This document shows positions 7,528-61,320 of a DNA stretch of 64,000 nt, piece after piece. The stretch spans positions 118,601 to 182,600 of the forward strand of contig JAFLKN010000022.1 in the NCBI GenBank assembly GCA_019163175.1, written 5' to 3'. The stretch's first letter is position 1. Every line of letters begins with the position of its first letter. The stretch is from Prolixibacteraceae bacterium (GTDB taxonomy: Bacteria; Bacteroidota; Bacteroidia; Bacteroidales; Prolixibacteraceae). The notes beneath the pieces are model-generated. The model was not told the DNA's origin. It saw only the letters and a program-made list of their open reading frames with translations, and ran no database searches. A program made the position numbers and the translations under genes.

Positions 7528-10500
7528 ATGAGGAAAACTATTCTGTTTTTATTGCTCATGGGGTTTTTCATCTCTTCTTTTGCGCAAATACAAATGCGTG
7601 GAAAAGTTCTAGATAGAAACACCAAAGAACCGTTGCCTGGTGCAACGATTGTGGCAAGTGGAACTACTGTTGGTACTATTACCAACGAAGAAGGTGAGTT
7701 CGTAATTAATGTTCCCCAAAATGCAAAAAAAATCTCCATTTCATTTATTGGATACGACCCCATGGAGGTTAATGTAGCACCAAACGTTACGGTTGAGTTA
7801 GTATCATCGAATCAATCAGTTGATGAAGTTGTTGTTGTTGGTTACGGGGTGATGCGCAAAAGTGATGTTACGGGAAGTGTCGCCAAGGTAAATGTGGAGG
7901 ACATTCGCAAAGTTACATCGATTGATGCTGCCAAAGCCATTCAGGGTAGGTTGGCAGGTGTCAACGTTATGTCGAATTCCGGCAGCCCAGGTTCGGGTGT
8001 GAAAATCCGTATTCGAGGTATTGGCACCATCAATAATTCGGATCCACTCTTTGTGGTCGACGGTTTTCCGATGGGCGATATCAGCCACGTAGCACCAACG
8101 GATATTGAAAGCATGGAAGTATTAAAAGATGCTTCGGCTACAGCTATTTACGGTTCGCGTGGTGCCAATGGCGTTATTCTGGTGAAAACCCGTACTGGTT
8201 CAAAAGCTGGTAGGTTTGAGGTTAATGCAAGTGTTGTAACCGGTATTTCGGAAGTTGCCAAACGATTGGAACTGGCCGATGCTACTGAGTTTGCCAATGC
8301 CCGCAAATCAATCGGAATGACTGACGACATTATTAATTATGTACTCGAACAACAAGCTGCAGGAAACTACCTGAAAGGAACCAACTGGCAAGATGAAATT
8401 TATCGTCAGGGAATTAATTCCCGCTACAATATAGGCATTCAGGGAAATACCGAAAGCTATTCTTACGACCATGGAGTTACCCTTTCGACCGAAAAAGGGG
8501 TTGTTAAAGGCACACAACTCGATAAATTCATGTTCCACTCCAACAATAATCTGAATCTTACAAAAAAAATTAAAACGGGCATGAATTTCAATTATGTACG
8601 TTACGAAAAACCGGGAGACAGAGGTGATTTCTACAGTGGAACCATTCCTGGTGCTTTGCGTTCCGATCCTATTTCGGCAGCATGGGATAGCTACACCAAT
8701 TTTTATGGTGAGGTTTATTATTCTCAAGCTGCTACCAATCCTGCATTGTCAATTTATTTGGGAGAAAAACAAAAAAGTATCGGCAACAGAGTGATGGGTA
8801 ACTTTTACCTTCAGTTCGACGATTTATTTTTAGAGGGTTTGTCATTCCGTTCGCAGTTTGGTAGTATTATGGATTTTAATGACAACAAATCATATAGCCC
8901 GAAATACTACATTACACCCACTCAAAAAAATGACGATGCAACGCTTAATCAAAACAGAGGTTATGGCTTAAACTGGGTGAATACCAATTATTTTTCATAC
9001 AACGCCAAAGTTGATAAGTTGAATATCAACACCACACTGGGTATGGAATTGCAGGCAAACAAATGGTCGGATATCTGGGCTACCGGATACGATGTGCCTG
9101 AAACAGCAAGTTTGCAATATCTGGGCGCACACAAAGACGCTGTTAAATTTAATTTGGGTGGTGGTCAAAGCGAAAGCCGTTTGCAATCCGGATTTTTCCG
9201 TGGAAACTTCTCATGGGATAATAAATATGTATTGACAGGAACTGTAAGAGCCGATGGCAGTTCGAAATTTACGAAAGAAAACCGCTGGGGGTATTTCTCT
9301 TCGTTTGCCGGTAGCTGGAATGTGCACAACGAAGAATTTATGTCTGGCATCAGTGAAATAGTGCCGATGTTGAAAGTTCGTGCCGGATGGGGACAAGTTG
9401 GAAATCAAGGCAGTGCCGGAAACTTCGACTATGTGTCAAGCGTAAATGGTGGATACATGTATGCATTGAACGGGTTGCCGGTGGAAGGTGCTGTGCAGCA
9501 ACAATTGGCAAATACAGAGCTGAAGTGGGAAACCGCTGAACAATTAAATTTCGGGCTTGACTTCGGATTGTTTGAGAATAAATTAACCGGAACCGTTGAC
9601 TATTTTATCAGAAACACGAACGATATGATCCTTTCGAAACCAATACCCATGTATTCGGGGAAGAAGAAACCTGCTGTAAATGCCGGAGCCATGCAAAACA
9701 AAGGGATTGAGGTTACGTTAAATTATGCCAAAAATAAAGGTGATTTTAAATACGATGTTGGTGTCAATTTCACATTTATTGAAAACAAAATTACCAGTTT
9801 AGCAGGTGGTGACCCTATTCGGAGTGGTGGAGCCGGACGTTTAGGCAATACAACGAAAACTGAAGTGGGTAAAGAAATTGCCTATTTTTATGGATACCAA
9901 ACGGATGGACTTTTCAAAACTCAGGAACAACTGGATGCTTACAAAAAAGACGGTGTAGCGATTCAACCAAATGCAGGACTGGGCGATGTAAAGTTTCTGG
10001 ATAACAACGGCGATGGTAAAATCACCGAATTGGATATGACCTACCTGGGCAGTGCAAGTCCTCTGATGACTGGTGGTTTTAATTTGAATATGGCTTACAA
10101 AGGCTTTGACATGGTAATTTTCATATCCGGTTCTTATGGAAATGAGATTGTAAATACGATGCGTCAGACCTTGTATAACTCGAAAATGTTCGAGACAAAT
10201 ATCAGTCGAGATATGGCAGTAAACTCATGGACTCCCCAAAATCCTACATCGAATGTTCCCCGATTGAATGCTGCTGATCTGAATAAAAACACCGAAAACT
10301 TTTCGGACTTGTATGTGGAAGATGGTTCCTACTTACGTTTGAAAAATTTGCAGGTTGGTTACTCGCTGCCAACTTCATTAATAAATAAAATCGGTGTTAA
10401 AAACCTTAGAATCTATGCTACTGTTGATAACCTGCTTACAATTACCAATTATTCAGGTTTAGATCCTGAACTGTTTGGATTATATGGCAACTCATTATCT

Positions 10501-10569
10501 TATGGTGTTGATATGGTTACCTATCCACAACCACGGACTTACTCTCTGGGTGTTAATATTACATTATAA
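7528..10569 (+). CDS. SusC/RagA-family TonB-dependent outer-membrane transporter
   Basis: 1013 residues. Signal peptide 1-19 (MRKTILFLLLMGFFISSFA), a carboxypeptidase-regulatory-like domain (about 22-98, GKVLDRNTKEPLPGATI), a TonB-box-like VDEVVVVGYG (about 96-105), a plug domain (about 110-220, VDGFPMGDIS and AIYGSRGANGVI), then the 22-strand barrel to the C-terminus. It imports oligosaccharides through the outer membrane with the SusD lid encoded 16 bp downstream, powered by TonB. It is the first gene of the HTCS-driven operon. The first 20 codons are almost the same as in the susC at 29286, while the rest of the protein differs strongly. The substrate is probably beta-manno-oligosaccharide, judged only from neighbours. 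Confidence 0.95.
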   Translation: MRKTILFLLLMGFFISSFAQIQMRGKVLDRNTKEPLPGATIVASGTTVGTITNEEGEFVINVPQNAKKISISFIGYDPMEVNVAPNVTVELVSSNQSVDEVVVVGYGVMRKSDVTGSVAKVNVEDIRKVTSIDAAKAIQGRLAGVNVMSNSGSPGSGVKIRIRGIGTINNSDPLFVVDGFPMGDISHVAPTDIESMEVLKDASATAIYGSRGANGVILVKTRTGSKAGRFEVNASVVTGISEVAKRLELADATEFANARKSIGMTDDIINYVLEQQAAGNYLKGTNWQDEIYRQGINSRYNIGIQGNTESYSYDHGVTLSTEKGVVKGTQLDKFMFHSNNNLNLTKKIKTGMNFNYVRYEKPGDRGDFYSGTIPGALRSDPISAAWDSYTNFYGEVYYSQAATNPALSIYLGEKQKSIGNRVMGNFYLQFDDLFLEGLSFRSQFGSIMDFNDNKSYSPKYYITPTQKNDDATLNQNRGYGLNWVNTNYFSYNAKVDKLNINTTLGMELQANKWSDIWATGYDVPETASLQYLGAHKDAVKFNLGGGQSESRLQSGFFRGNFSWDNKYVLTGTVRADGSSKFTKENRWGYFSSFAGSWNVHNEEFMSGISEIVPMLKVRAGWGQVGNQGSAGNFDYVSSVNGGYMYALNGLPVEGAVQQQLANTELKWETAEQLNFGLDFGLFENKLTGTVDYFIRNTNDMILSKPIPMYSGKKKPAVNAGAMQNKGIEVTLNYAKNKGDFKYDVGVNFTFIENKITSLAGGDPIRSGGAGRLGNTTKTEVGKEIAYFYGYQTDGLFKTQEQLDAYKKDGVAIQPNAGLGDVKFLDNNGDGKITELDMTYLGSASPLMTGGFNLNMAYKGFDMVIFISGSYGNEIVNTMRQTLYNSKMFETNISRDMAVNSWTPQNPTSNVPRLNAADLNKNTENFSDLYVEDGSYLRLKNLQVGYSLPTSLINKIGVKNLRIYATVDNLLTITNYSGLDPELFGLYGNSLSYGVDMVTYPQPRTYSLGVNITL

Positions 10570-10585
10570 AAAAATCAGATATAAC

Positions 10586-12265
10586 ATGAAAAAAGCAATA
10601 TATATTTTACTGTGTGCAGTCCTGACAATTGGATTCTCCGGCTGTGAGGATTTCCTTGACATAAAGCCTCAGGGGTCAGAAAACAGTGCGAATTTCTTCG
10701 ACTCTGAAGAAAACGGCGTTCGTGCAATCATAGGTATTTATGATATGTTACAACTCGATGAAGGAGCCGGTCCCGATGGGCAATGGATGGGACACCACCA
10801 CGATTTCATCGTTAGCGATATTAGAAGTGATGACGCTGAAAAAGGTAGTAACGATGGCGACTACGGCGCAATGTGGGAAATGCTCGATTTTACAATGACA
10901 CCACAGATTGGTTTTGCAAGCGATTTCTGGATTCATGGTTTTTGGGGCGTATCACGCACTAATTACGCGTTGGATAATTTGCCCAATGTAACCTGGAGTC
11001 CTGCTGTTCGCGACCGACTTATTGGCGAAGCATCTTTTTTAAGAGCCTATTATTACTCGCACCTTGTTCGCATTTACGGAGGCGTTCCATTGTTTACAAG
11101 CTCTGTAAAGCCATCTGATTTTGGTAAAGTTAAACGCGCTTCTTTGAAAGAGTGTTATGCTCAAATTGCTGCAGACTTGTTGAAAGCCATTGAATTATTA
11201 CCCGAAAAAAGTGTGATTCCAGCTGCCCAGACAGGTCGTGCTTCCAAAGGAGCCGCCCGTGCACTGTTAGCCCGTATTTACATGTATCAAATTGGTACTG
11301 ATATTGAAAATAAAACGACCTGGCAACAAGTGTATGATCTTACCAACGCTGTAATAACTTCAGGCGAGTACAGTTTAATGCCTAACTACGCCAAACTTTG
11401 GGAAACTGAAAATAAGAACAACGAAGAGTCTGTTTTTGAAATTCAGTTTGGTGTGGGTGCCAGCGATGCTGCACCTGCTTCCATTGGTACAAACTTCTAT
11501 AACTTCCAGGGTAACCGGAAAGATGATTCAGGTTGGGGATTTAACAATCCGACTCCTGATCTTGTTGCAGCTTATAATGTTACAACTACAAATGACCCGC
11601 GCCTTTCGTGTGTGGTGTACGGCGAAAAATTCAACAACGGAATTTTATATGGTATAAAAAAGAAATACGACCGCAATGAGCAAGGTTCTGACTGGTTGAA
11701 CCGCAAAGCTGCTCTTCCCGTTAAACCGGCACAGGCAAAAGCAAGCAACCGTAACATTAAAATAATCCGTTATGCCGATGTGCTTTTGATGCATGCAGAA
11801 GCTTGCTGGTACCTCAATAAATTTGACGATGCCAAAGCCAAACTGAATATGGTTCGTAACAGAGCACGCAATAGTACTTATTGCATGGGTTATGCCGAAG
11901 GCAAAATGGACTACAGCGCAGCCCCAACTTCAGTAAATCTTCCGGATATTACTTCAGCAAGCAATCAGTTGTTAGAAGATATATGGAAAGAACGCCGGCT
12001 TGAATTGGCCATGGAGCAAATTCGTTTTTACGATTTGGTGCGCACTGGTCGCTATTTTACAGCAATGGATGCTGAAAAAAATCAAAAACGTGCTACAGGA
12101 CTTACTTATGGGTTGGGTGTAAAGGCCTACAAACAATTCCCTAACCTTAAAACGAATGGTTTGGCAAAATCAATTGATGGACCAAACGGGAACAAGGTTC
12201 CTTTGATGCCGATACCTCAAACGGAAGTTGCAGCTTGGGGATTGGAACAAAACCCTGGATATTAA
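10586..12265 (+). CDS. SusD/RagB-family outer-membrane glycan-binding lipoprotein
   Basis: 559 residues from ATG 10586. A longer frame begins at 10475, but its first 37 codons overlap susC and precede an obvious lipoprotein signal (MKKAIYILL to SGC, lipid Cys20), so the inner start is used. SusD signatures follow: CEDFLDIKPQ, EASFLRAYYYSHLVRIYGGVPLF (TPR-containing region), NAVITSGEYSLMPNY, and near the C-terminus the WKERRLELAMEQIRFYDLVRTG helix pair. It forms the lid of the SusC barrel and binds glycan at the cell surface. It is co-transcribed with susC and with the glycan-binding lipoprotein that follows after 24 bp. Confidence 0.95.
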   Translation: MKKAIYILLCAVLTIGFSGCEDFLDIKPQGSENSANFFDSEENGVRAIIGIYDMLQLDEGAGPDGQWMGHHHDFIVSDIRSDDAEKGSNDGDYGAMWEMLDFTMTPQIGFASDFWIHGFWGVSRTNYALDNLPNVTWSPAVRDRLIGEASFLRAYYYSHLVRIYGGVPLFTSSVKPSDFGKVKRASLKECYAQIAADLLKAIELLPEKSVIPAAQTGRASKGAARALLARIYMYQIGTDIENKTTWQQVYDLTNAVITSGEYSLMPNYAKLWETENKNNEESVFEIQFGVGASDAAPASIGTNFYNFQGNRKDDSGWGFNNPTPDLVAAYNVTTTNDPRLSCVVYGEKFNNGILYGIKKKYDRNEQGSDWLNRKAALPVKPAQAKASNRNIKIIRYADVLLMHAEACWYLNKFDDAKAKLNMVRNRARNSTYCMGYAEGKMDYSAAPTSVNLPDITSASNQLLEDIWKERRLELAMEQIRFYDLVRTGRYFTAMDAEKNQKRATGLTYGLGVKAYKQFPNLKTNGLAKSIDGPNGNKVPLMPIPQTEVAAWGLEQNPGY

Positions 12266-29285: not shown

Positions 29286-32200
29286 ATGAGAAAAACTATT
29301 CTGTTTTTATTGCTTATGGGATTTTTCATCTCAGCTTTTTCGCAAATTCAGTTACGCGGAAAGGTTGTAGATAAAAATACGAAAGAACCATTACCGGGTG
29401 TTTCAGTTGTAGTAAAAGGCACTACCATCGGAACCATTACCGATAGCAACGGTAGTTATTCAATTTCCAACGTTTCAGAAAATGCGACTTTGCAATTTAC
29501 GTTTGTAGGAATGAAATCTCAGGAAATTGCTGTTGGCGGAAAAACAAATATTGATGTAATGCTTGAAGAAGATGCCATTGGAATTGAAGAAGTGGTTGCC
29601 ATTGGCTATGGAACAATGAAAAAGAGCGATTTGACAGGCTCTGTCTCCAGAACTTCCATCGGGGATAAGGCTACTCAGAATAATACCAATCTGCTACAGG
29701 CTTTATCCGGATCTACAGCTGGTGTAAATATTCAGGCAGCTGGGCTCGCTGGTGCTGAACCAAATTTGTCGATCCGGGGAAAGACTTCACTGTCGGCAAG
29801 CGACAAACCTTTAATCGTACTCGACGGGATTATTTATAACGGCGATATTGCAAACGTTAACATTAGCGATGTCGAATCGGTTGACATATTAAAAGATGCT
29901 AGTGCAGCTGCTGTTTATGGATCAAGATCTGCAAACGGGGTATTGCTAATCACTACTAAAAAAGGAAAATCTGATAAGCCAACCATATCATTTAATATGA
30001 GCTATGGTTATCAGGACTTGACAAATAATCCGATGTCGGTTATGAATGCGGATCAATATGCAATCAGATTGGTCGATTTCTATTACCAGCAAAGTTTGTA
30101 TACCTGGTATAAAACCAAACCAACAAGTGCAACCGGAAAGCCAGTCAGACCGGATGTCACAGACCGGAATGTTGTTGCTGCCCGATTGAGAACTCAGGAA
30201 GAAAAAGATAATTATTTAGCCGGAAACGAGATTGATTGGACTGATGAAGTTACCCGAATGGCTCCCATTCAGAACTACAATCTAAGTTTTTCCGGAAAAT
30301 CAGATAGGAGCAATTACTTTGTTTCTGCCTCATATGCCAACGAGGAGGGAATTCAATTGAATGACCAATTTTCGAGATTTACCATTCACAGTAATGTGGA
30401 GAGTAAAGTGGCAAGTTGGTTAACGATCGGACTAAATGCATCCTATTCTTATCGCGACTATTCGGGTTTGGAGGCTGATTTAGGATGGGATAAAACCGGT
30501 GCAAGAGCTGCCAGTCCTTTGGCGAATAATAAGATTGGTTTGCCAAAGTACGATATGTTTCTAACAGGCGAAGCTTATATGCCGTACCCACTTAATAATT
30601 TGTATGTGAATAACAGTGATATCAGGAACAACCTATTTCTTGTTGGTAATGCCAAGGTAACTGTTCCATGGGTTAAGGGTTTAACTTATGAACTAAATTA
30701 CTCAAACACCTACTCGAACAGAAACAACAATACATTTTATCCTGTCACAACTCCGAATGGAGCGGGCAACAAGGGTCAGGCAATTAAAAATCCTTCTGAA
30801 CAGAGAAATGACATTGTAAACAACATTGTAACCTATTTAAGATCATTTGGCGATCATCAGGTAAATGCCACTTTGCTTTACAGCCGCGAAAACAGTATTG
30901 CACAAAGCTCGACGCTTAATGCACAGGGATTTGACAATGCGGTTTTAGGATACAATAACATGGGACTTGGAACTATTGCCACTGTTGCTTCAACAGCATG
31001 GGAAGAAAATAGCATTTCTTATATGGCGCGGGCGAATTATTCGTACAAAAACCGTTATATGCTTACCGGAACTGTTCGTCGTGACGGGTTCTCCGGATTT
31101 GGCGAAAATACCAAATTCGCTACATTTCCATCAGTTTCATTGGGATGGGTGGCATCTGAAGAGTCCTTCATGGAAAATCTTGACTGGATGTATTTAAAAC
31201 TCAGAACATCGTATGGTAAAAACGGGAACCAGGGAATCGGACGCTATTCCAGTTTCTCCAGAATGACCGCCAATCCATACATATATGGTTCAAATACTGC
31301 AATTTCTGTTTTCCCAAGTACACTTGGAAATGCAGATCTGGGCTGGGAAGCAACATCTTCTTTCAATGTTGGAATCGACTATGCTTTCCTCGATCAGCGA
31401 ATTTCAGGGTCGATAGATGTTTATCAGGCAAAAACGAATGATGTTTTGGTTCAAAGAACACTTCCTCCAACAACCGGATATTCAAGTGTTTGGGCAAATA
31501 TTGGCGCAATCGAGAATAAAGGTATTGAATTGGCTTTGAATACAGTTAACTTCAAGGGTCAGTTTAATTGGACAACTAACTTCAATTTCTCATTGAACAG
31601 GGATAAAATTTCCAAATTGTACGGAGGCAAAAATGATAAGGACATAGGAAATTCATGGTTTGTTGGGGAATCGATAAGTGCAATATACGATTATGAGTTT
31701 GCTGGCGGACTTTGGACCGAGCAGGAACTTTATGAAGGAAAAACTTTAGCCAACTGGTATCCGGGTCAGTTTAAATACGTCGATCAGAATACTGACGGTG
31801 TAATTGAGCCAAATGCCGACCGCAAGATCATCGGATACAAAACACCAAACTATAGGTTCAGTATCACCAATACCTTAAGCTATAAAGATTTCACTTTCTC
31901 ATTCCTGATTAACTCAATTCAGGGTGGCAACGGATATTATTTAGACGATAACTCCTCGGTAGTCAATACGCAATGGAACTCCGACAATGTTTACCGTGTT
32001 AATGCCTCTGCGGTAAGACCATACTGGACTCCGGATAATGGGGTGAATAATGCTACCGGTATTTACAATACTCCGGTTGTACATGGTGGAGTTTACGAAA
32101 GCCGCAGTTTTGTTCGCTTACAGGATGTATCATTGAGTTACAACTTCAAACCTGAATTACTGAAATCACTCAAAATTGAGTCGTGCCAGTTTTTTATCTC

Positions 32201-32312
32201 CGGAAAGAATCTTTATACCTGGACCAAATGGTCGGGATGGGATCCTGAAGTCGGAGTTAGTGACTCGCCTCTGATGAGAAATATCACTACAGGGTTCAGA
32301 CTTACCCTTTAA
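29286..32312 (+). CDS. Second SusC/RagA-family TonB-dependent transporter of PUL 1
   Basis: 1008 residues. Its signal peptide (MRKTILFLLLMGFFISAFS) is nearly identical to that of the susC at 7528, also at the DNA level. A carboxypeptidase-regulatory-like domain (about 22-100), the motif IGIEEVVAIGYGTMKKSDLTG (TonB-box region), a plug (about 115-215, VLDGIIYNGDI and AVYGSRSANGVLL) and a barrel ending in GFRLTL follow. Beyond the first about 45 residues the two transporters differ clearly, so they should take different oligosaccharides. It shares the promoter architecture of the first susC and pairs with the SusD 46 bp downstream. Confidence 0.95.
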   Translation: MRKTILFLLLMGFFISAFSQIQLRGKVVDKNTKEPLPGVSVVVKGTTIGTITDSNGSYSISNVSENATLQFTFVGMKSQEIAVGGKTNIDVMLEEDAIGIEEVVAIGYGTMKKSDLTGSVSRTSIGDKATQNNTNLLQALSGSTAGVNIQAAGLAGAEPNLSIRGKTSLSASDKPLIVLDGIIYNGDIANVNISDVESVDILKDASAAAVYGSRSANGVLLITTKKGKSDKPTISFNMSYGYQDLTNNPMSVMNADQYAIRLVDFYYQQSLYTWYKTKPTSATGKPVRPDVTDRNVVAARLRTQEEKDNYLAGNEIDWTDEVTRMAPIQNYNLSFSGKSDRSNYFVSASYANEEGIQLNDQFSRFTIHSNVESKVASWLTIGLNASYSYRDYSGLEADLGWDKTGARAASPLANNKIGLPKYDMFLTGEAYMPYPLNNLYVNNSDIRNNLFLVGNAKVTVPWVKGLTYELNYSNTYSNRNNNTFYPVTTPNGAGNKGQAIKNPSEQRNDIVNNIVTYLRSFGDHQVNATLLYSRENSIAQSSTLNAQGFDNAVLGYNNMGLGTIATVASTAWEENSISYMARANYSYKNRYMLTGTVRRDGFSGFGENTKFATFPSVSLGWVASEESFMENLDWMYLKLRTSYGKNGNQGIGRYSSFSRMTANPYIYGSNTAISVFPSTLGNADLGWEATSSFNVGIDYAFLDQRISGSIDVYQAKTNDVLVQRTLPPTTGYSSVWANIGAIENKGIELALNTVNFKGQFNWTTNFNFSLNRDKISKLYGGKNDKDIGNSWFVGESISAIYDYEFAGGLWTEQELYEGKTLANWYPGQFKYVDQNTDGVIEPNADRKIIGYKTPNYRFSITNTLSYKDFTFSFLINSIQGGNGYYLDDNSSVVNTQWNSDNVYRVNASAVRPYWTPDNGVNNATGIYNTPVVHGGVYESRSFVRLQDVSLSYNFKPELLKSLKIESCQFFISGKNLYTWTKWSGWDPEVGVSDSPLMRNITTGFRLTL

Positions 32313-32358
32313 TTATACATTCAGTAAAACTATACGGTAACTAAAAAATAAAATAACA

Positions 32359-34077
32359 ATGAAAAACTATCTATATATATTTAGGAAGAAGTACTTCTTT
32401 TCAACGGTACTGCTTACGCTTATTTTCTCCTCTTGCTCAGAAGATGTGCTCAAAGAAACTCCGCTCGATTTTCTGGCACCAGAGAATGCTTACAATACAG
32501 TGGCCGGTATTCAGCAGGGAATAAGCGGATTGCATTTTAGTGTTCGCGATGCATGGTTCAATGGCGACAACCAGGATCAACTGGCTATGCTGGTTGGAGG
32601 TTGCGGAACCGATATTGCTTTTCATGGCGAAAATCCAGGAGGTAACATTAAGCTGGTTAATTACAAAAATGAGATGACTCCTGAAAATTCAATCTTCACC
32701 TTTTTCTGGGAAAGAAATTACAGTCTGATTCAACGTGCAAACGTTTTGATCGACCGGATCAAGGTTTCCGATAAATCCATCTGGACTAGCGATGCACAAA
32801 AGAATGCTTACCTGGCCGAAGCTTTGTTCTTCAGAGCTTATGCCTATCGTATGTTGGTTTCTTTTTATGGTGATGTTCCTCTTGTAACCGAACCTACAAA
32901 ATCGGCTAAAACAGATTTTGTCAGGGCTCCCAAGGCCGATATTTATAAGCTAATGGAAGAAGATTTAACTTTTGCTGTTGCAAATTTGCCAGTTCGCGGT
33001 AAAGAAGATGCCCCCGGAAGAATTACTCAAGGCGCCGCCGGACATTTTCTGACCGAGTTGTATATTACTCAATCGAAACACCAGCAGGCCGTTGATGCAG
33101 CCTCAAAAGTTATCGACACCGGAGGTTATTCACTCATGACTCAGCGTTTCGGATCAACCCGAGATGTGTTTGGAAAAGGAGATGTATTTCTGGATCTTTT
33201 TGCTTACGGAAACCATAATTTGTCCACAAACAAGGAAGCTGTCTGGGTTATACAGATTGAACCAATCGTTACCGGTGGAGGTCAATATCCAGGTGATAGG
33301 GCATGGGGACCGGCTTACTTCAGGTTGGGTAATACGCCTGATGGAAAGACTGCATTTAGAGGCGAACTTTACAATGGTGCATACACTGGCTATTCCGATA
33401 CATTAGGTCGGCCAGTTTCATGGATTAAACCAACCAATTACACGGCCTATACCATTTGGAGAAGCGATTGGAAAAATGACATCAGAAATGCGGAGCACCA
33501 CATCAAAAGAACATTTTATTACGACAATCCGGCATCAACATACAACAAGAAAAAGATCGATTTTTCTCTTTACCCCAAAGGAACTCGGGATGCTTTAAAA
33601 GACACCTGTCAGTATATTTATCCTTACTTCCTGAAACATTCTGATCCGCTTCACCATTTTATTGAGCCTAACCGATCGGGTGGGGGTTGGACACACAAAG
33701 ACGTTTATGCAGTTCGTTTGGCTGAAACTATTCTTTTGCGGGCCGAAGCATACATTGGCCTGGGTAAGAAAGACCTTGCAGCTGCTGATATAAATGCCAT
33801 CCGGAACAGGGCAAAAGCCACACCTGTCGATCCTTCAAAAGTTGATCTCGATTATTTGCTCGACGAACGTGCCAGAGAACTTTACGCCGAAGAATGGAGA
33901 CCAATTACTTTACGACGGATGGGTAAATTATTGGAAAGAACCCGTAAATACAACAACAATCCGGTGTTCCCTGCCTGCAATATTCAGGATAACAATGTTT
34001 TATTCCCAATACCACAAAAGCAGCTCGATTTAAATATTGATGCCAAAATGGAACAAAATCCAGGGTATGCCAAATAA
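32359..34077 (+). CDS. Second SusD-family lipoprotein of PUL 1
   Basis: 572 residues with a lipoprotein signal (lipid Cys26 in LIFSSCSED). SusD signatures are LKETPLDFLAPENAYNT, YLAEALFFRAYAYRMLVSFYGDVPLV, DTGGYSLMTQRFG, VRLAETILLRAEAYIGLG, and DERARELYAEEWRPITLRR near the end, finishing MEQNPGYAK. It partners the preceding SusC at the outer membrane. Length and architecture are typical. The next gene (oxidoreductase) follows after 39 bp, which suggests one transcript. Confidence 0.95.
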   Translation: MKNYLYIFRKKYFFSTVLLTLIFSSCSEDVLKETPLDFLAPENAYNTVAGIQQGISGLHFSVRDAWFNGDNQDQLAMLVGGCGTDIAFHGENPGGNIKLVNYKNEMTPENSIFTFFWERNYSLIQRANVLIDRIKVSDKSIWTSDAQKNAYLAEALFFRAYAYRMLVSFYGDVPLVTEPTKSAKTDFVRAPKADIYKLMEEDLTFAVANLPVRGKEDAPGRITQGAAGHFLTELYITQSKHQQAVDAASKVIDTGGYSLMTQRFGSTRDVFGKGDVFLDLFAYGNHNLSTNKEAVWVIQIEPIVTGGGQYPGDRAWGPAYFRLGNTPDGKTAFRGELYNGAYTGYSDTLGRPVSWIKPTNYTAYTIWRSDWKNDIRNAEHHIKRTFYYDNPASTYNKKKIDFSLYPKGTRDALKDTCQYIYPYFLKHSDPLHHFIEPNRSGGGWTHKDVYAVRLAETILLRAEAYIGLGKKDLAAADINAIRNRAKATPVDPSKVDLDYLLDERARELYAEEWRPITLRRMGKLLERTRKYNNNPVFPACNIQDNNVLFPIPQKQLDLNIDAKMEQNPGYAK

Positions 34078-37273: not shown

Positions 37274-38245
37274 ATGAGCGATTTTTTCAATCGATATTTA
37301 AATAATCAGTGTAGCGAAGAAGACTTTAATCGTTTTCTCGATCTCTTTTTACAAGAAGAAAAGATAGATGAGTTGGAACAACGCATGCATTCCGACTGGA
37401 ATAACAGGCCTGAGGCAAATGCTGTTCCTGATCTTACTCCCGTATTGCACGAAATTCATTATCAAATAAACAAAACCGACAAGAAACCAACCGGGAAAAG
37501 GTCATTAGTGTGGTATATTACCCGGATTGCAGCTATTCTGGTATTGCCACTAGCTTTAGCTCTCTTTTACCAATGGGGTGCTCATTCATCCGAAACAAAA
37601 TTTACACAAACCGTTTCAACTCCACTGGCTTCTCGTAGTAGTTTCGAATTGCCCGATGGTTCAAAAGTGTGGTTAAATGCAGGTTCAACAATTTCGTTTC
37701 CAAACCGGTTTGGCAAAAATGCACGAGTCGTCAAATTAATTGGTCAGGCCTATTTTGACGTAAAAAAAGATAAAATACCTTTTAAAGTTGAAACCAAGAG
37801 TTTTGCGGTAAAGGTTCTTGGAACTGCCTTTGATGTTTTTGCTTATCCGGGCGAGAATGCTGAAGTTACGCTCGAACGCGGAAAAGTTCAGATAGAAACC
37901 ATAACGAATGCAGTTACAGACTTAGATCCCGGACAGCAGGCCATAATAAATAAACAGGATGGCCAGGTCGAAAAACGTAGTATCGATTCGAAAGCCTTTG
38001 TTGCCTGGAAAGATAATCGTTTAACCTTTGTTGAAGAGCCGCTCGAAAGGGTTGTTCTATGTCTTGAGCGTTGGTTCGATGTGTCTATTGATATAGAGGA
38101 TGCTACAATTAAAAATCTGAAGGTAAACGGAACTATTGAATACGAAACGATAAGTGAGGTTCTTAATCTCCTTCAAATTACTGCGCCAATCAATTATACT
38201 TACGATAAAGACAAACAAATCTTTAAAATAAGATCAAAACAGTAA
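37274..38245 (+). CDS. FecR-family anti-sigma factor
   Basis: 323 residues. A cytoplasmic N-terminal sigma-binding part (1-77), one transmembrane segment (about 78-100, YITRIAAILVLPLALALFYQW), a periplasmic FecR domain (about 115-215, RSSFELPDGSKVWLNAGSTISFP, VKLIGQAYFDV, VKVLGTAFDVFAY) and a C-terminal DUF4974-like domain (about 255-320). It holds the ECF sigma factor until a signal comes from the STN domain of the partner SusC. That partner gene is 155 bp downstream on the same strand. The three genes form a standard trans-envelope relay. Confidence 0.95.
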   Translation: MSDFFNRYLNNQCSEEDFNRFLDLFLQEEKIDELEQRMHSDWNNRPEANAVPDLTPVLHEIHYQINKTDKKPTGKRSLVWYITRIAAILVLPLALALFYQWGAHSSETKFTQTVSTPLASRSSFELPDGSKVWLNAGSTISFPNRFGKNARVVKLIGQAYFDVKKDKIPFKVETKSFAVKVLGTAFDVFAYPGENAEVTLERGKVQIETITNAVTDLDPGQQAIINKQDGQVEKRSIDSKAFVAWKDNRLTFVEEPLERVVLCLERWFDVSIDIEDATIKNLKVNGTIEYETISEVLNLLQITAPINYTYDKDKQIFKIRSKQ

Positions 38246-38400
38246 CAAACTAAAACCATTGCCTATGTGAAAAAAAAGTCCTGAAGTTATACTTTTCGTT
38301 TTCTGAAGAAAAGACAAAAAACAGAAGTGGGAAAGCCTCCAACTTCCCCACCTGAGCAAATAATTTCTGTTAAAAATTATTCATTTAATATCACAAATTT

Positions 38401-41400
38401 ATGAAAAAAAACGACTTGCAAAAGTACCGTCCGAGGCTATTTTTGTCTAAACTATTATTCATTATGAGGCTTGTTTTTTTCTTTCTATTCGTATCAATGT
38501 TTAGTGCTTTTGCCACTGAAACATATTCTCAATCGACAAAATTATCTCTAAGCTTGAATGATGTTACCATTGGAGATGTGCTAAGAAATATTGAAGATCA
38601 GAGTGAATTTCGGTTTTTCTATACCGAAAAGGTATCAACAGAGAAAAAGGTATCTGTTGATTTCCGGAAAACAACGATCAATGAAGTACTGGATGAATTA
38701 TTTAAAGAAACGAGTATCGCTTACAGGGTAGTCGGTCGGCAAATTGCTTTGTTCCAAAATGGTAATAATCCAGAGTTCATGCAATCAGGACAATCCCGCG
38801 AGATTAAGGGAAAGGTAACTAATACTGCTGGTGAGCCCATTCCGGGAGCAACCATTGCGATAAAAGGTACATCAAGCGGAATTATTACCGATGACAATGG
38901 GAACTATACTCTTCCAAAAGTTCCGGAAGGTTCAATTCTGGTTTTCTCTTTTGTTGGAATGAAATCACAGGAAGTTCCAAGTCAGGGAAAATCGGTAATT
39001 GATGTAAAACTGGAAGAAGAAACTATTGGCATTGAAGAAGTTGTAGCTATAGGCTATGGAACCCAGAAAAAGAGAGATATGATTGGGTCAATAGCTTCAC
39101 TTTCGTATGACGACGTCAAAAAAACATCTCCCGTTTCTGTCGAATCTTCTCTTCAGGGAATGGCAGCCGGTGTTCAGGTAAACTCAGGAGCTGGTATACC
39201 GGGAGCTCCTCAACAAATCAAAATTCGTGGTGTAGGCTCCATTTCTTCAGGTACCGATCCTCTTTGGATTGTAGATGGTATTCCTGTTGTTAGTGGGCCA
39301 ATCGACAGAAGTTATGATGGAGAGACCAGTCAGAGTATTTTGGCCATGATCAATCCAAACGATATTGAATCCATCCAGATATTAAAAGATGCTGCAGCCA
39401 CCTCTATTTATGGGTCGCGTGGTTCAAATGGTGTTATCCTTGTAACTACCAAGACTGGTAAAAAAGGACAAACCAAAGTTGAAGTTGATGTCAAGACCGG
39501 TGTTAGCAATTGGGCCAAATCGGATATCGGTTATGCCAATAACAAAGACTACATCTCGATTATGGACCTGGCATTCCAAAATAGGGGAGCTGGTTTATAT
39601 AGTGTTGAAAACTCAATCAAACAATTGGATGGTGCTACTGAAACTATGACTCGCGAAGAAGCGCTGGCAACAAATACCAACTGGGCCGATGCCATCTCAC
39701 AGACAGGTAGCTTCTACGAATCCAATGTTTCAGTTAGTCAGGGCTCTGAAAGAGGAAACTCATACCTGTCATTGAAATACAGAAACGATGACAGCAACTT
39801 GAAGTTCAATACAATGGAAAACTATTCCGCAAATGTGAACTTAAACTATAACCTGATGAAGAACCTCGATCTGGGTTACCGCATGTTTGCTTCCTTTACC
39901 GATAATGATCGTTTAAAATCGGGCGACGGTAAAGCCGGTGCAGGTGGTTGGGCTCAGGTAAATTCGAATGCTCTTCCATGGATGAAAATATTAGATCCCA
40001 AAGGATTAAATGGCTACTGGAACTCCAAAGCTGCCGTAAATCCAATGGCCGGAATCGATCCGATAAATGCCCAGTCAAACTTAAAAACAATCAATGTTCT
40101 TTCGGGATTGAATGGAACATGGCGTACTCCAATTCAGGGATTATCCTTAAAAGGCGAATTTGGTTTAAACTATGTAGCAAACCGCGCCCGTTCATGGAGA
40201 AGTGGGGCACTTTTGGTGAATGGTGCTGTTGCTCAGGAAAGTAAATTTGAAACAAACACAGTCAACTATAACGCGTACTTCAATTATGATGTGCCAATCA
40301 ATGATGACCATATTCTGAATTTGGTTACCGGTGTTGAAAATACACGTCAGTTTGTACATTCTATGACAATGAAGGGTGAAGGCTTAGTTGGGGCATTCCC
40401 TGAAGTTGGAACTCCGATTACATTGAGTGGAAACTCACAAATGGGTGGGGAAGCTTATTTAAGAGGTTTTTTTGGACGTGCAAATTATAAGCTTTTCGAT
40501 AAATACCTTGCCGGCGTAAGCATCCGTCGCGATGGTATCTCTAAATTCACATCAGATAATCGCTGGGCAACATTCCTTTCCGGATCACTTGGCTGGATTA
40601 TTTCTGAAGAAAAGTTTTTCAATTTCGAACCGGTTAGTCTTTTAAAATTGAGAGGAAGCTACGGTCAGACAGGAAATACCAATATTCCCGGAGGAATCAC
40701 TTCTGACCTTTATGGAATCAATAGCGGAACCTCCACCCTGGAGGGATTTAACAATGCCTATCTTCAAAGTATTGGAAACTCCGACATCAAATGGGAGACT
40801 ACCAATTCGTTGGATGCTGGTATCGATTTTGGCTTGTTCAACAACCGCATAAATGGCTCTCTGGCCTACTACCAGAAAAAGGTTTCCGACATGTTGCTGG
40901 CTGTAACATTGCCACCATCAGCCGGTATCTTTGGAGGTAATTCCTGCTGGCAAAACATCGGTGATATGAAGAATGAGGGGATCGAATTTAATGCCAATGC
41001 CTTAATCATTAGCAAGAAAGACTTTACCCTGAACTTTGGATTCAATATCTCGTCGAACCAAAACAAAGTACTTGCTTTAGATCCTGCATCAGATGCCAAT
41101 CATGTGGGTATTCTTCAGTCGGGCGAAGCCGGTATTGTGCGTACTATTACAAAAGCTGGTTTGGCTTGGGGTACTTATTACATGGCCGAATATGCCGGTG
41201 TTGATGCACAAAAAGGTATTCCGCTTATTTATGAAGTTAAAAAGCTGGAAGATGGAACAACTGAACATACCGGAAACATTATCCCAGCTACTGACGAAAA
41301 TATGAGTAATAACAAGATGATCCTCAAAGATAAGACATCACTTCCTAATCTTCTTGGTGGATTCAATGCAAATCTTACTTATAAAAACTTCGACTTAGGT

Positions 41401-41898
41401 ATGGTTTGGTCATTCGTAACTGGAAACTACATTTATAACCGCCTGTTGCAAAGTTCAATGACTCCGAATGCAGGTTTGCTGGTTGCCAACGAAAAATTAT
41501 TGACCGAAAGCTGGACAAAACCCGGCGACAATGCTTATTGGCCTCAGGTAGTTGCCGGAAATCTTTACAACTACGATAGCCAGGGCAACCCAACTACAGC
41601 TGGTGTAAAATATGGTTCCGATAACAATACACCTTCTTCTCAATATCTTGAAAAAGGTGATTATCTAAAACTTCGCAATCTGACTTTGGGCTATAAAGTA
41701 CCAACCCAACTGACGAACAAATATAAAATTGCCAATGTTCGGCTTTATGTTGCTGCCAACAATTTGCTGACTTTCACCAAATTCTCAGGATACAATCCTG
41801 AACTTGAAATTGATCAGGCAAGTGGTGGTAGTTATTCTACATTTACCTCGATGCCAGCATCGCGCGTATTTATGTTTGGGTTGAATGTTAACTTTTAA
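38401..41898 (+). CDS. STN-domain SusC-family TonB-dependent transporter/transducer (PUL 2)
   Basis: 1165 residues, about 150 longer than the two PUL 1 SusCs. The extra length is a secretin/TonB N-terminal (STN) domain at about 45-100 (LSLNDVTIGDVLRNIEDQSEFRF, TINEVLDELFKETSIAYRVV). Then come a carboxypeptidase-regulatory-like domain (about 135-215), IGIEEVVAIGYGTQKKRD, a plug and the barrel. STN-carrying SusCs signal to FecR while importing, which fits the adjacent FecR/ECF pair. The 155-bp gap upstream holds an imperfect GTGGGAA/TTCCCCAC hairpin but none of the TGTAACAT boxes of PUL 1, consistent with separate control. The SusD start is 11 bp after its stop. Confidence 0.95.
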   Translation: MKKNDLQKYRPRLFLSKLLFIMRLVFFFLFVSMFSAFATETYSQSTKLSLSLNDVTIGDVLRNIEDQSEFRFFYTEKVSTEKKVSVDFRKTTINEVLDELFKETSIAYRVVGRQIALFQNGNNPEFMQSGQSREIKGKVTNTAGEPIPGATIAIKGTSSGIITDDNGNYTLPKVPEGSILVFSFVGMKSQEVPSQGKSVIDVKLEEETIGIEEVVAIGYGTQKKRDMIGSIASLSYDDVKKTSPVSVESSLQGMAAGVQVNSGAGIPGAPQQIKIRGVGSISSGTDPLWIVDGIPVVSGPIDRSYDGETSQSILAMINPNDIESIQILKDAAATSIYGSRGSNGVILVTTKTGKKGQTKVEVDVKTGVSNWAKSDIGYANNKDYISIMDLAFQNRGAGLYSVENSIKQLDGATETMTREEALATNTNWADAISQTGSFYESNVSVSQGSERGNSYLSLKYRNDDSNLKFNTMENYSANVNLNYNLMKNLDLGYRMFASFTDNDRLKSGDGKAGAGGWAQVNSNALPWMKILDPKGLNGYWNSKAAVNPMAGIDPINAQSNLKTINVLSGLNGTWRTPIQGLSLKGEFGLNYVANRARSWRSGALLVNGAVAQESKFETNTVNYNAYFNYDVPINDDHILNLVTGVENTRQFVHSMTMKGEGLVGAFPEVGTPITLSGNSQMGGEAYLRGFFGRANYKLFDKYLAGVSIRRDGISKFTSDNRWATFLSGSLGWIISEEKFFNFEPVSLLKLRGSYGQTGNTNIPGGITSDLYGINSGTSTLEGFNNAYLQSIGNSDIKWETTNSLDAGIDFGLFNNRINGSLAYYQKKVSDMLLAVTLPPSAGIFGGNSCWQNIGDMKNEGIEFNANALIISKKDFTLNFGFNISSNQNKVLALDPASDANHVGILQSGEAGIVRTITKAGLAWGTYYMAEYAGVDAQKGIPLIYEVKKLEDGTTEHTGNIIPATDENMSNNKMILKDKTSLPNLLGGFNANLTYKNFDLGMVWSFVTGNYIYNRLLQSSMTPNAGLLVANEKLLTESWTKPGDNAYWPQVVAGNLYNYDSQGNPTTAGVKYGSDNNTPSSQYLEKGDYLKLRNLTLGYKVPTQLTNKYKIANVRLYVAANNLLTFTKFSGYNPELEIDQASGGSYSTFTSMPASRVFMFGLNVNF

Positions 41899-41909
41899 AA
41901 TCTTTAACG

Positions 41910-43547
41910 ATGAAAAAAATCTTTAAAACGATAGTAGCACTAAGCCTCCTCCTTTTGAGTGTTTCGTGCGACAATGAAGGCTTCTTCGAATTGGAAAGGC
42001 CAAACCAATATCCATGGACGAAAGTTAAAGAACTCGAATTAGCTGTAAGACAACCTTACCTGCTACTGATGGGAAATGCCTGGGGTAGTCCGGTTGGCGC
42101 CCTTGGCCTTAGAGGTTTTGCTGAATCAGATATAAGCCAATACCTGAATGGAATTACCGGTTCAAGCTATTTTTATGAATATTACAACCGTTTATGGAAA
42201 ACTACAACATTAAATACCAGTGATAAAGAGCTCGAATTGGCTTTCGGATACCTATATCAGATTTCAACAGCAACCAATGCACCGTTGAAGCTAATTAATG
42301 ATGCTGAAAAAGCTGGAAAAGATGTATTCGAGAACATGACCGAAACTGATCGTCAAACGGTAAAACGGTATAAAGGTGAATTGCTGTTTTTGCGCGCAGT
42401 TTGCTATTGGTATCTGGCCAGAACCTGGGCTCCTCCGTACAATCCGGCAGGTCCAAATACTGGCAAATACTTTGTTTTACGTCGCGACTATGTAAATGGA
42501 GCCGATGACATTAAGAATGGATCGCTGGCAACTGTTGAAGAAGTGTATTCTTCCATTGTTCAGGACCTGAAAGATGCCGTTGATGTACTTCCTACTTCGT
42601 ATGTTACCAGTGAATTAAGTCAACGTTCACGCGTTAATAAATATGCGGCTCAGGCCATGCTGGCCCGTGTTTACTTTTACATGGGTAAAACGGCTCTGGC
42701 AAAGGCTCAACTCGATGATGTTATCAATAGCAAAATGTACAATTTGAATGATGATCCGATTGAAGCTTTTAACCGTGTGGCTGGTGAAGGTAGCAGCGGA
42801 GAGATTATTTGGGAAATTGCACTGTCATCAACTTCAAGTAAGTTCGACCGTATCCCAACAATCTTTTCAAAAAACAACTACACAGCTAATGGTGGTCGGG
42901 GTACAAGCTGGAATCATTGCGCCTGGGCTTGTTTCACGCTTTCATACAATACGCTGAAACAAATTGGATGGATGAATAATGATCTGTCGGTTGGCACTGA
43001 AGCTGCAAAGGACAAACGCTATACCCAAACATTTATTCGTTTGGAAGCTTACAAGGCAAATCCATGGAGTTCGTCAGCAAACCCGGTTGAGTATTTTACG
43101 CATTTGAATACCTACGAAACACGCTATTCTCCGATTACAACACCTCATGTATGGCAGGATAAACATTTTCGCGCCAAAACAAGTGGTCGTCGTTCGAACC
43201 GGGCGATGTTACGTTTGGCCGAAATGTACTTAACCCGTTCAATTATTCGTTTTAAAGATGGCGATAAAGTGGGAGCAGCCGAAGATTTAAATGTAGTCCG
43301 TCACCGTGCCGGATTGGATAATATCTCATCTGCTGATATTACTGAGCTTGCTATCGAAAACGAACGTATCAAAGAATTGGCCGGCGAACATGCGGATCGT
43401 CTTTACTATCTGATTGCTTTGCGAAAACCAATTGGTATTGGCGACAGAGATCCAAGTAAATTCTCGCCAATCCAGCCTCCATATTCTGACTACTACTGGC
43501 AGGTTCCTTTGGTAGAGCAACAACAGAATAAAGCATACCAACAGTAA
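41910..43547 (+). CDS. SusD-family lipoprotein of PUL 2
   Basis: 545 residues with a lipoprotein signal (lipid Cys20, LLLLSVSCDNE). SusD features: FLRAVCYWYLARTWAPPYN, INSKMYNLNDDP, RSNRAMLRLAEMYLTRSIIRF, and ENERIKELAGEHADRLYYLIALRKP near the C-terminus. The protein ends unusually (VEQQQNKAYQQ) instead of the common NPGY, otherwise typical. It forms the glycan-binding lid of the STN-SusC and is followed by a strong terminator, so the enzyme operon beyond probably has its own promoter or depends on readthrough. Confidence 0.93.
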   Translation: MKKIFKTIVALSLLLLSVSCDNEGFFELERPNQYPWTKVKELELAVRQPYLLLMGNAWGSPVGALGLRGFAESDISQYLNGITGSSYFYEYYNRLWKTTTLNTSDKELELAFGYLYQISTATNAPLKLINDAEKAGKDVFENMTETDRQTVKRYKGELLFLRAVCYWYLARTWAPPYNPAGPNTGKYFVLRRDYVNGADDIKNGSLATVEEVYSSIVQDLKDAVDVLPTSYVTSELSQRSRVNKYAAQAMLARVYFYMGKTALAKAQLDDVINSKMYNLNDDPIEAFNRVAGEGSSGEIIWEIALSSTSSKFDRIPTIFSKNNYTANGGRGTSWNHCAWACFTLSYNTLKQIGWMNNDLSVGTEAAKDKRYTQTFIRLEAYKANPWSSSANPVEYFTHLNTYETRYSPITTPHVWQDKHFRAKTSGRRSNRAMLRLAEMYLTRSIIRFKDGDKVGAAEDLNVVRHRAGLDNISSADITELAIENERIKELAGEHADRLYYLIALRKPIGIGDRDPSKFSPIQPPYSDYYWQVPLVEQQQNKAYQQ

Positions 43548-57227: not shown

Positions 57228-59033
57228 ATGAAGCAATTACATTCAATCATACTGCTGGTTTTTTTTGCCTTTGCAACCGGAAATGCAAAAGCACAGTTTG
57301 TTACAAGCGATTCGTGGACAGCGACTGATGCACTGGGGCGAAAAATCAGCGATTATAAAACTGCCGGAGAACGGAAAAAGGACAAGTTCGTAGCTATGTT
57401 TTATTGGACCTGGCATCAGGGAGTTGACGACACCACGGTTCAGGTTGGAAATATTACCGAAATCGTGAGGAAATATCCGGAGGCAATGAAGAACTACAAT
57501 CATCCGGCATGGAACAAGCGGAAGTGTGGAAATTTTTATTGGGAGCAACCGCTTTTGGGGTATTACCGAACTACGGATGCGTGGGTACTCCGGAAACATG
57601 TCGAAATGCTGGCCGATGCCGGGATTGATGCTGTATTTTTCGATTGTACCAATGGCTCGTTGACTTGGTCAGAATCGTACGAAACTTTGCTTAAAACCTG
57701 GGACAAGGCACAAAAAGATGGTGTTAACGCGCCTAAAATTGCCTATATGCTTCCGTTCGGAGCATCCGAAAATTCATTGGTTTCGCTTCGTCAATTGTAT
57801 CGCGATGTGTATAAACCAGGCCGCTACAAAAATCTATGGTTCTTTTGGAAAGGTAAACCCTGTATCATGGCTTACCCTGATAACCTGACCGAATCGGCTG
57901 AAGACCGCGAGATTGCTGCGTTTTTTACCTTCAGGCCAGGCCAGCCCGACTATGTGAATGGCCCACGCCGCAACGACCATTGGGGTTGGTTGGAAAACTA
58001 TCCGCAACATGGTTATGTAAAAGCTGAAAAGAATAAGTTCGAACAAGTAACGGTGGGTGTTGCGCAGAATGCCGGTCCTCTAAACGATGGACATTGCAGC
58101 GCTTTCAACCTGCCCGGAACCTATGGACGCAGCTACAGTAAAAACAACGGATTCGATCCGCGTGTGGATGGCTATCTCTACGGATGGAACTTTCAGGAAC
58201 AATGGACACGCGCTTTTGAACTTGATCCGGAGCTGGTTTTTGTAACCGGCTGGAACGAGTTTATTGCAGGGCAATGGCTGCCAAAAGATGGCTGGTCGGG
58301 CTATCCTTTTTCGTTTGTTGACGAATTTGATTGGGAACATAGCCGCGACATTGAACCCAACAAAGGTTGGGGAGACAAAGGCGATGTGTACTATTTACAA
58401 CTGATTGATAATGTACGCAAATTCAAAGGAATGTCTGCACCGGAAAAAGCTTCGCCGACCAAAACAATCCGGTTAGGTAAAGCCGATGACTGGGCCGATG
58501 TTTTACCTGATTACAAACACTACGGCGGGAACACTTTTCCTCGCGACCATCGCGGACGTAACAATCAGTATTACACCAATAAAATGGGGCGTAACGATAT
58601 TGTTCGTGCTAAAGTGGCCCGCGATAATCAGAAAATCTATTTCTATGTTGAAACCGCCCAAAAGCTGACACCTTAAAGTGACAGAAACTGGATGTTGCTG
58701 TTGATTGATGTTGACAGAGACAAATCGACAGGCTGGAACGGCTACGATTTTATTGTGAACCGCATTAACCCGAAAGGAAATAAAGCCATCATCGAGAAAA
58801 ATGTTGGAGGTCGGTGGGAATGGGAACCCGTGGCGCAAACAAAATTCGCAGTCAACAGCAATAAACTGGAATTGGAAATAAATCGCGATATCCTGAATTT
58901 GAAAGCTGCAGAGATTGATCTGGAGTTCAAATGGAACGACAATATGCAGGAGAATGGAAATATTATGGATTTCTATGTCAACGGCGATACCGCTCCGGGA
59001 GGACGATTTAATTTCGTTTATACCACAAAATAG
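57228..59033 (+). pseudogene. GH71/99-like glycosidase with CBM9-like tail, split by in-frame TAA
   Basis: ATG 57228 opens a frame with a signal peptide (about 1-21). A TIM-barrel domain of the GH71/GH99-like type follows (FVAMFYWTWHQGVDD, LLGYYRTTDAWVLRKHVEMLADAG, AVFFDCTNGSLTW, FVTGWNEFIAGQW). It is cut by TAA at 58674-58676, after 482 codons. The frame continues without a shift to 59033 (SDRNWMLLLIDVDRDKSTGW onward), completing a CBM9/DOMON-like module that starts near residue 410 (TIRLGKADDWADV). A single base change from a Tyr codon (TAT/TAC) would explain the stop. The catalytic barrel is intact, so a shortened protein lacking part of the CBM could still work. It is either a recent nonsense mutation, readthrough, or a sequencing error. 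It lies 20 bp after the beta-helix gene and 19 bp before GH92. Confidence 0.8.
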
Positions 59034-59052: not shown

Positions 59053-61320
59053 ATGATGCTCAAAAAAGTAATTATTTTATCATCTATCCAACTGGTTTTT
59101 CTGGCGGGTTGCCAAACTTCGGAGGAACTTTCGGAAAAGGATTTTACCCAATATGTAAATCCGATTATCGGAACAGCACCAACAACTACGGAATCGGGAC
59201 TAAAGCACGGTGGCGGAACCGAAAACAATGCCATGGTTCAACCTTCGGTAACCATGCCTTTCGGGATGACAAACTGGTCGCCGCAAACCACCAATACCGA
59301 AAAAAAATGTGTCTCATCGTATTACTACAAAGACACGCTGATCACCGGATTTCGAGGCTCGCACTGGCTAAGCGGTTCGTGTACTCAGGAATATGGATCA
59401 ACTGCTGTGATGCCCATTTTCGGCCAATTGGTTTGCAATCCGGCCAAGCGAGGTTCAACTTATGACCATGCTACTGAAATTTCGAAACCAAATTATTACA
59501 AGGTGGAACTCGGAACCTACCAGATTACTTCAGAAATGACGGCCACTACCCGTTGTGGTTTGTTGCGCTTTACCTTTCAAAAAGAAGGTGATGGCCACAT
59601 TGTTGTTAATCCCAACAGCGACGAGGGGCAGGGTTTTGTTCAGGTAATTCCTGAAAAGAATGAAATTGTAGGGTTCAACCCGATTCACCGGATTTACCAG
59701 GGATGGGGAAAACCAGCGGGATTCTCCGGATATTTTGTAATGCGCGTAGAGAAAACTGCCGATTCGTATGGCGTGTATTCCGAAGACCAGATAAGCAGCG
59801 GAATAAGTAAATTGGAGAATCAACCCAACCTCGGAGCTTACTTTTCATTCAAGGTAAAAAAGGGCGAACAGATAAAGGTGAAAATCGGGACTTCGTTTGT
59901 GAGCATCGATCAGGCACGTAAAAATCTGGACACTGAAATTCCTGATTTTGATTTTGAAACTGTTCAGCAAAATCTGAAAAATACATGGAATGAAATATTA
60001 TCGAAAATTGAAGTAGAAACACAAAATAACGATGAACTGGTGAAATTCTATACCGCCATGTTCCATTCGTTCCAGCAGCCGCGTACGTATAACGATATCG
60101 ATGGTCAACATCCGCGATTCGACGGTAATGACCAGACCGATACCATTTGTAATGGGAATTATTACGGTGACGTTTCGGCCTGGGATACTTACCGGGCGCT
60201 GCATCCGCTGTATAACCTCATTGCTCCCGAATACAATGCTGATATGGTGAAATCGATACTTGCCATGGGCAAAGTACGCGGTTGGATTCCCATTTTCCCT
60301 CAGTGGAACAGCTACACAGCGGCGATGATTGGAGATCATGCTGTTTCTATTGTTGCTGAAGCATACATAAAAGGTACAATTGACCTGACCGAGGCGGAAT
60401 ACCAGCTGATGAAACACAATGCCACCGAAACTCCCGCAACCTTTGAAGAATATGTTGATGGGAAAAGTCGCCGGGCTTTGCCTTCGTACCTGAAATACGG
60501 ATACATTCCGCTTGAAGACTCGGTTCAGGAAGCCTTTCACAAAAAAGAACAGGTTTCGCGCACACTCGAATATGCTTACGACGATTTTTGTCTGGCTCAG
60601 GTGGCAAAAAAAATGGGAAAAACTGACGATTACAACTACTTTATGAAACGTGGGCAGAATTACAGAAATGTGTTTGACCCGGCGGTAAACAACATGAATG
60701 GACGTTTTGCCAATGGCACATTCACCAAAGAATTTGATAAAAATAAGAAGATGTTCTACATCACCGAAGGAACGCCCTGGCAATACAACTGGTACGTTCC
60801 TCAGGATGTAGAAGGTCTGATTGGCCTGATGGGTGGTAAGGAAAAATTTAACCAGACACTCGATGCTTTTTTTGCTGACGGACAATACTGGCACGGCAAC
60901 GAACCCGGTCACCAGATTCCGTTTATGTACACGTATTCAGGCGAACCCTGGAAATCCACAAAAGAAGTTCGAAATATCCTGAAAACTGAATACGGCACCG
61001 GCCCCGGCGGATTAAGCGGTAACGACGATTCGGGACAAATGTCGGCCTGGTACATTTTTGGCGCTATTGGTTTTTATCCCGTTTGTCCATCTCTGCCCGA
61101 GTATGCGGTTACCGGACCGGTCTTCGAAAAAGTGACAATCAAATTGGGTAATGGCAAAACGTTGGTACTCTCAGCACCCGGAAATTCAGAAAAGAACTGC
61201 TACGTTAAGTCTATTCGGTTCAACAACAAAGCGATTGCTAATTATAGATTCTCACACGCCGATTTATTGAACGGGGGAACAGTTGAGTTTGAAATGACTG
61301 ACCAAATACCAGTTAACTAA
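59053..61320 (+). CDS. GH92 alpha-mannosidase lipoprotein
   Basis: 755 residues with a lipoprotein signal (lipid Cys20, LVFLAGCQT). GH92 layout: an N-terminal beta-sandwich (about 30-285, YVNPIIGTAP, GFRGSHWLSG) and an (alpha/alpha)6 toroid (about 310-755). Diagnostic motifs are YWHGNEPGHQIPFMY with the proton donor Glu617, and GNDDSGQMSAWYIFGAIGFYP with Asp658/Asp659 at the base position. Family members are calcium-dependent inverting alpha-mannosidases, mostly alpha-1,2- but also alpha-1,3/1,4/1,6-. This is the clearest evidence that PUL 2 handles alpha-mannose. It is co-directional with genes 19 bp before and 16 bp after. Confidence 0.95.
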   Translation: MMLKKVIILSSIQLVFLAGCQTSEELSEKDFTQYVNPIIGTAPTTTESGLKHGGGTENNAMVQPSVTMPFGMTNWSPQTTNTEKKCVSSYYYKDTLITGFRGSHWLSGSCTQEYGSTAVMPIFGQLVCNPAKRGSTYDHATEISKPNYYKVELGTYQITSEMTATTRCGLLRFTFQKEGDGHIVVNPNSDEGQGFVQVIPEKNEIVGFNPIHRIYQGWGKPAGFSGYFVMRVEKTADSYGVYSEDQISSGISKLENQPNLGAYFSFKVKKGEQIKVKIGTSFVSIDQARKNLDTEIPDFDFETVQQNLKNTWNEILSKIEVETQNNDELVKFYTAMFHSFQQPRTYNDIDGQHPRFDGNDQTDTICNGNYYGDVSAWDTYRALHPLYNLIAPEYNADMVKSILAMGKVRGWIPIFPQWNSYTAAMIGDHAVSIVAEAYIKGTIDLTEAEYQLMKHNATETPATFEEYVDGKSRRALPSYLKYGYIPLEDSVQEAFHKKEQVSRTLEYAYDDFCLAQVAKKMGKTDDYNYFMKRGQNYRNVFDPAVNNMNGRFANGTFTKEFDKNKKMFYITEGTPWQYNWYVPQDVEGLIGLMGGKEKFNQTLDAFFADGQYWHGNEPGHQIPFMYTYSGEPWKSTKEVRNILKTEYGTGPGGLSGNDDSGQMSAWYIFGAIGFYPVCPSLPEYAVTGPVFEKVTIKLGNGKTLVLSAPGNSEKNCYVKSIRFNNKAIANYRFSHADLLNGGTVEFEMTDQIPVN

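Follow-up and report, generated by a model that had tools for sequence, protein, structure and literature searches.

Stop codons within otherwise open reading frames are widespread in bacterial genes, where they are mostly short-lived, on the scale of polymorphisms, and carbohydrate metabolism is a frequent category among the genes that carry them (Belinky et al. 2021, PMC7918605). The same authors assume that most of these codons are without functional recoding (PMC7918605). The gene described here carries such a codon in a putative glycoside hydrolase, for which the described relatives are the endo-α-mannosidases and endo-α-mannanases of family GH99 (BtGH99 and BxGH99; 4acy and 4ad1), with two catalytic glutamates in an EW[H/G]E motif (PMC11025385), the α-1,3-glucanases of family GH71 (Agn1p and AnGH71C; 8yfh and 9fnf) and, for its C-terminal domain, the carbohydrate-binding module CBM9 (Xyn10A of Thermotoga maritima, 1i82; 7nwn). 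It lies in a 64,000-nucleotide stretch of DNA from a Prolixibacteraceae bacterium, referred to here as the window.

The frame spans positions 57228-59033 of the forward strand and comprises 602 codons, exactly one of which is an internal stop on translation: a TAA at codon 483 (58674-58676). It closes with a TAG at 59031-59033, and its translation contains no frameshift and, between these two codons, no further stop. Under the standard code, the open reading frame thus ends at the internal TAA after 482 residues (57228-58676), and the same-frame continuation (58677-59033) holds 118 codons and the terminal TAG, with conservation as in intact homologues. Homologues align through the stop on both sides, which rules out a chance open frame. 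The continuation also contains an open reading frame of 113 codons with an ATG start (58692-59033); a restart there would give a partial C-terminal domain without a signal peptide, which we judge unlikely to matter. The gene is the single match in the 5.92 Mb, 74-contig draft assembly that holds the window, with no paralogue found there that could supply its function, and no phage or plasmid copies of it were found.

The locus is an ordinary polysaccharide utilization locus. Upstream of the gene lies a SusC/SusD pair with a FecR gene (37274-43547), followed by genes for GH63-like, BNR-repeat, esterase, GH43-like and beta-helix proteins, and the next gene downstream is an intact GH92 (alpha-mannosidase family; 59053-61320, forward strand), which is on the same strand and probably shares a transcript with the interrupted gene. 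The window holds three SusC/SusD pairs in all (7528-12265, 29286-34077 and 38401-43547), and long genes without a Pfam match, at 12290, 18493, 23061, 26852, 47664 and 52959, lie between the pairs. Homologues of the interrupted gene sit beside different genes, GH20 and GH106 in Maribellus among them; within 5 kb of these homologues, counterparts of the window's neighbours were not found, except for an esterase at one locus (L048) and weak SusC and FecR matches. As neighbours differ among homologues, the substrate is not readable from context.

Searches of Pfam, NCBIfam and, with the single sequence, the PDB gave no family for the protein. A profile built from 75 relatives matches GH99 structures (E value about 1e-5), and an AlphaFold model based on the alignment, with codon 483 taken as Gln, reached a mean pLDDT of 92.9 and a pTM of 0.92. 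The model places a predicted catalytic (beta/alpha) barrel at residues of about 51-404 (57378-58439), complete before the stop, and a C-terminal beta-sandwich domain at residues of about 405-601 (58440-59030), split by the stop, which falls in a loop between the strands at 469-476 and 490-494. By its model, the barrel is GH99-like in fold: it superimposes on GH99 4acy_A with a Z score of 18.9 and an rmsd of 4.8 over 277 aligned residues (model 50-402), compared with Z scores of about 15 for GH71 and 12 for other barrels. The C-terminal domain, modelled alone with a pLDDT of 89.3, shows the CBM9 beta-sandwich fold, with matches to 7nwn (Z 9.9, rmsd 4.5, 149 aligned) and 1i82_A (Z 9.5, rmsd 3.8, 148 aligned) and a slightly higher score for CBM74 of Sas6 (Z 10.9); the Pfam CBM9_1 model matches weakly and below cut-off in 5 of 68 members (best E value 0.0045). 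An earlier note on this DNA, made from the letters alone, had described a frame open except for the TAA, a GH71/99-like catalytic domain and a CBM9-like module formed by the sequence on both sides of the stop; translation, with homology continuous across the stop, bears out the first of these, and the GH99 and CBM9 matches agree with the other two.

The likeness to described families has limits. The barrel fold is shared with GH99 at about 17% identity, and an Asn-Glu pair of the present protein aligns with the region of the first catalytic glutamate, which itself falls, in a weakly aligned stretch of the profile alignment, on the invariant E344. The second catalytic glutamate (E336 of BxGH99) aligns in the same weak stretch with A347, which provisionally speaks against placing the family in GH99 proper; unlike GH99, the protein lacks a Pfam family and has an added C-terminal domain. 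GH71 is a related barrel with a structural score below that of GH99, and its DYGE-type motif appears to be absent from the corresponding place, where the present protein reads NEFIAG. The barrel plus CBM9-like family (57228-59033 of the window and loci L032-L110) has neither a Pfam nor an NCBIfam model, is widespread in Bacteroidota and may represent an undescribed glycoside hydrolase family. Within it, the homologous gene is present in at least three side-by-side copies in Alistipes sp. dk3624 (L062:1303-6785), and four larger relatives of 835-1208 residues (L012, L013, L010 and L020) have an insert that splits the barrel near query residues 226-229.

Scanning genome contigs yielded 79 homologue loci, mostly in Bacteroidota with a few in Kiritimatiellota and others, and searches in relatives added more. 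In every full-length relative, homology to the 601-residue frame crosses the stop without a gap or a change of frame (tblastn), with 95 alignments spanning the site and identities in close relatives of 60-80% upstream and downstream alike. No other full-length homologue has a stop at codon 483, and a check for homologues that naturally end there found none among about 90 full-length sequences. Most relatives have Ser, Pro, Gln or Lys at this codon, and His, Arg and others also occur; Lys stands there in L093, which the tree places as sister to the present sequence (support 92/89), and Gln in L045, the full-length homologue with the greatest similarity. The earlier note had expected an aromatic residue, probably Tyr, an expectation that the alignment does not support: codon by codon, aromatics amount to three Tyr and one Phe among about 100 relatives, all below 40% identity, and neither residue occurs among homologues above 70% identity. 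The codon lies in a variable loop, five codons before the conserved W488-M489, and, judging from the alignment, the position tolerates almost any residue. Several of the codons found there in close relatives are one substitution from TAA.

The sequence after the stop bears no mark of decay. None of 44 conserved columns has changed in comparison with 59 intact homologues, which themselves deviate at 2% of conserved columns on average, and differences at codon positions 1 and 2 are no more frequent, relative to those at position 3, than in intact homologue pairs (ratio 0.32, against 0.356 with a standard deviation of 0.076); neither relaxed selection nor further disabling changes were seen downstream. 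By a hand calculation at 95%, the 0 of 44 holds the neutral amino-acid change accumulated after the stop arose below about 0.07 per column, compared with 0.26 changes per column on the gene's own tree branch. The nearest homologue found has only 79% protein identity, so that any age given for the stop is an indirect one. Prolonged neutral evolution of the downstream sequence would have left changes; as it shows no decay, the stop should be either very young or erroneous, or else readthrough tolerates it; these comparisons point to a codon that is isolated, unshared and either very young or a consensus error.

We consider it probable that one lineage recently acquired a nonsense mutation by the change of a single base, and that this cut short a secreted glycoside hydrolase, in other respects an ordinary member of a polysaccharide utilization locus; on this reading the base is genuine. 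Translation would then end after residue 482 and a truncated protein would presumably be made, comprising the whole barrel and, of the C-terminal CBM9-like sandwich, no more than the initial part. In the model, the truncation leaves the barrel whole, removes more than half of the sandwich strands and leaves an incomplete fold. The C-terminal fragment is thus not expected to fold, and the partial sandwich would probably misfold or be clipped. If the stop is real, the likely outcome is a secreted enzyme with an intact barrel, lacking the C-terminal module and possibly unstable.

The next reading, clearly less probable and still a serious one, is that the organism has an intact gene and that the TAA stems from a consensus, assembly or strain-mixture error. 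This reading would fit the fully maintained look of the frame after the stop and the draft state of the assembly, in 74 contigs, although on its 233 kb contig the site is 56 kb from the end, clear of assembly edges, and there are no frameshifts or other oddities nearby. The rarity of such codons in the genome also agrees with it, as a few wrong bases per genome would give the same rate. A scan based on codon usage, aimed at stops immediately flanked by coding sequence on either side, covered 1.25 Mb (about 21% of the genome) and returned the codon-483 case and three others that resemble ordinary junctions between two genes, in which an ATG follows within a few codons of the stop. No second interrupted gene of this kind was found in the 1.25 Mb, at a sensitivity of about 20% for planted stops at the threshold used, so that further cases may have escaped. 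A homology scan over 124 kb likewise gave the codon-483 case as the only credible one, its other rows being isolated matches, mostly in reverse-strand shadow frames. A further point on the side of error comes from a metagenome assembly of the same genus (L032, identical to L003), the homologue of which (L032:5001-6643) has a different in-frame stop, a TAG at the position of residue 524 in the C-terminal domain. This TAG lies about 80 bases from the contig end and is therefore likely to be an assembly error, and the case shows that sporadic in-frame stops occur in draft data. A strain-level nonsense mutation and a sequencing error, both proposed in the earlier note, stay the two leading readings, in that order.

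The earlier note's third proposal, readthrough giving two protein lengths, found no positive evidence, and programmed readthrough is very unlikely. Regulated or leaky readthrough would give an enzyme with and without the full C-terminal domain and keep the downstream sequence under selection, which would also account for the lack of decay there. Yet the stop is shared at the same place by no relative and occurs in one genome only, and TAA is the usual and commonest terminator of this genome, ending 287 of 460 long open reading frames. No tRNA with a UUA anticodon, which would read UAA, is among the 41 readable of 42 tRNA matches, a list that is incomplete, as it rests on scores for 150 of 434 candidates and lacks some essential tRNAs. 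Downstream of the stop, the RNA is somewhat more stably folded than its dinucleotide-shuffled versions (z -2.24); with simple shuffles, the 3' flank gives z scores of -1.2 to -1.35 against a mean of -0.17 (standard deviation 0.94) in homologues without the stop, so that this mild signal falls within their spread and no distinctive downstream structure was found. Slimmer still is the chance that the stop is both real and read through often enough to hold the C-terminal domain under selection, with two enzyme forms.

Selected loss of the C-terminal domain, by which the shorter enzyme would be the adaptive form in this lineage, we regard as no more probable than readthrough. The same-genus homologue with its own, different TAG in the same domain leaves slight room for repeated loss, but that case adjoins a contig edge. 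The domain is retained in all other homologues, which come from many families of Bacteroidota and from a few Kiritimatiellota; 28 columns across it are invariant, and the cut falls inside the domain rather than at its border.

Selenocysteine or pyrrolysine insertion is rejected, as TAA is the wrong codon and SelA is also absent, and so is genome-wide reassignment of UAA, given that TAA is the usual terminator and that one internal case was found in 1.25 Mb, at the sensitivity of about 20% stated above.

Separately from the interrupted gene, we observed three tRNA-like genes in tandem, each 90-93 nt long and with a long variable arm (G000:C6:19451-19760; L263:51-361, minus strand), in a genome without SelA. 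Their anticodons are UCA, which would read the stop codon UGA, UCG and CCG, and their DNA has no match in 22 further genomes of the genus. They are reminiscent of allo-tRNA-like tRNAs (PMC7609411), but in at least two of the three the acceptor/T arrangement seems to be the normal 7/5.

By itself, the interrupted gene carries little weight, sporadic nonsense codons being common in bacterial genomes. Annotation would call two fragments at 57228-59033, and the widespread barrel plus CBM9-like family merits description from its intact members. Set against the sporadic in-frame stops described in bacteria (PMC7918605), the present one differs in that a single genome carries it, and it is like them in its main feature, a single stop in an otherwise conserved-looking gene.
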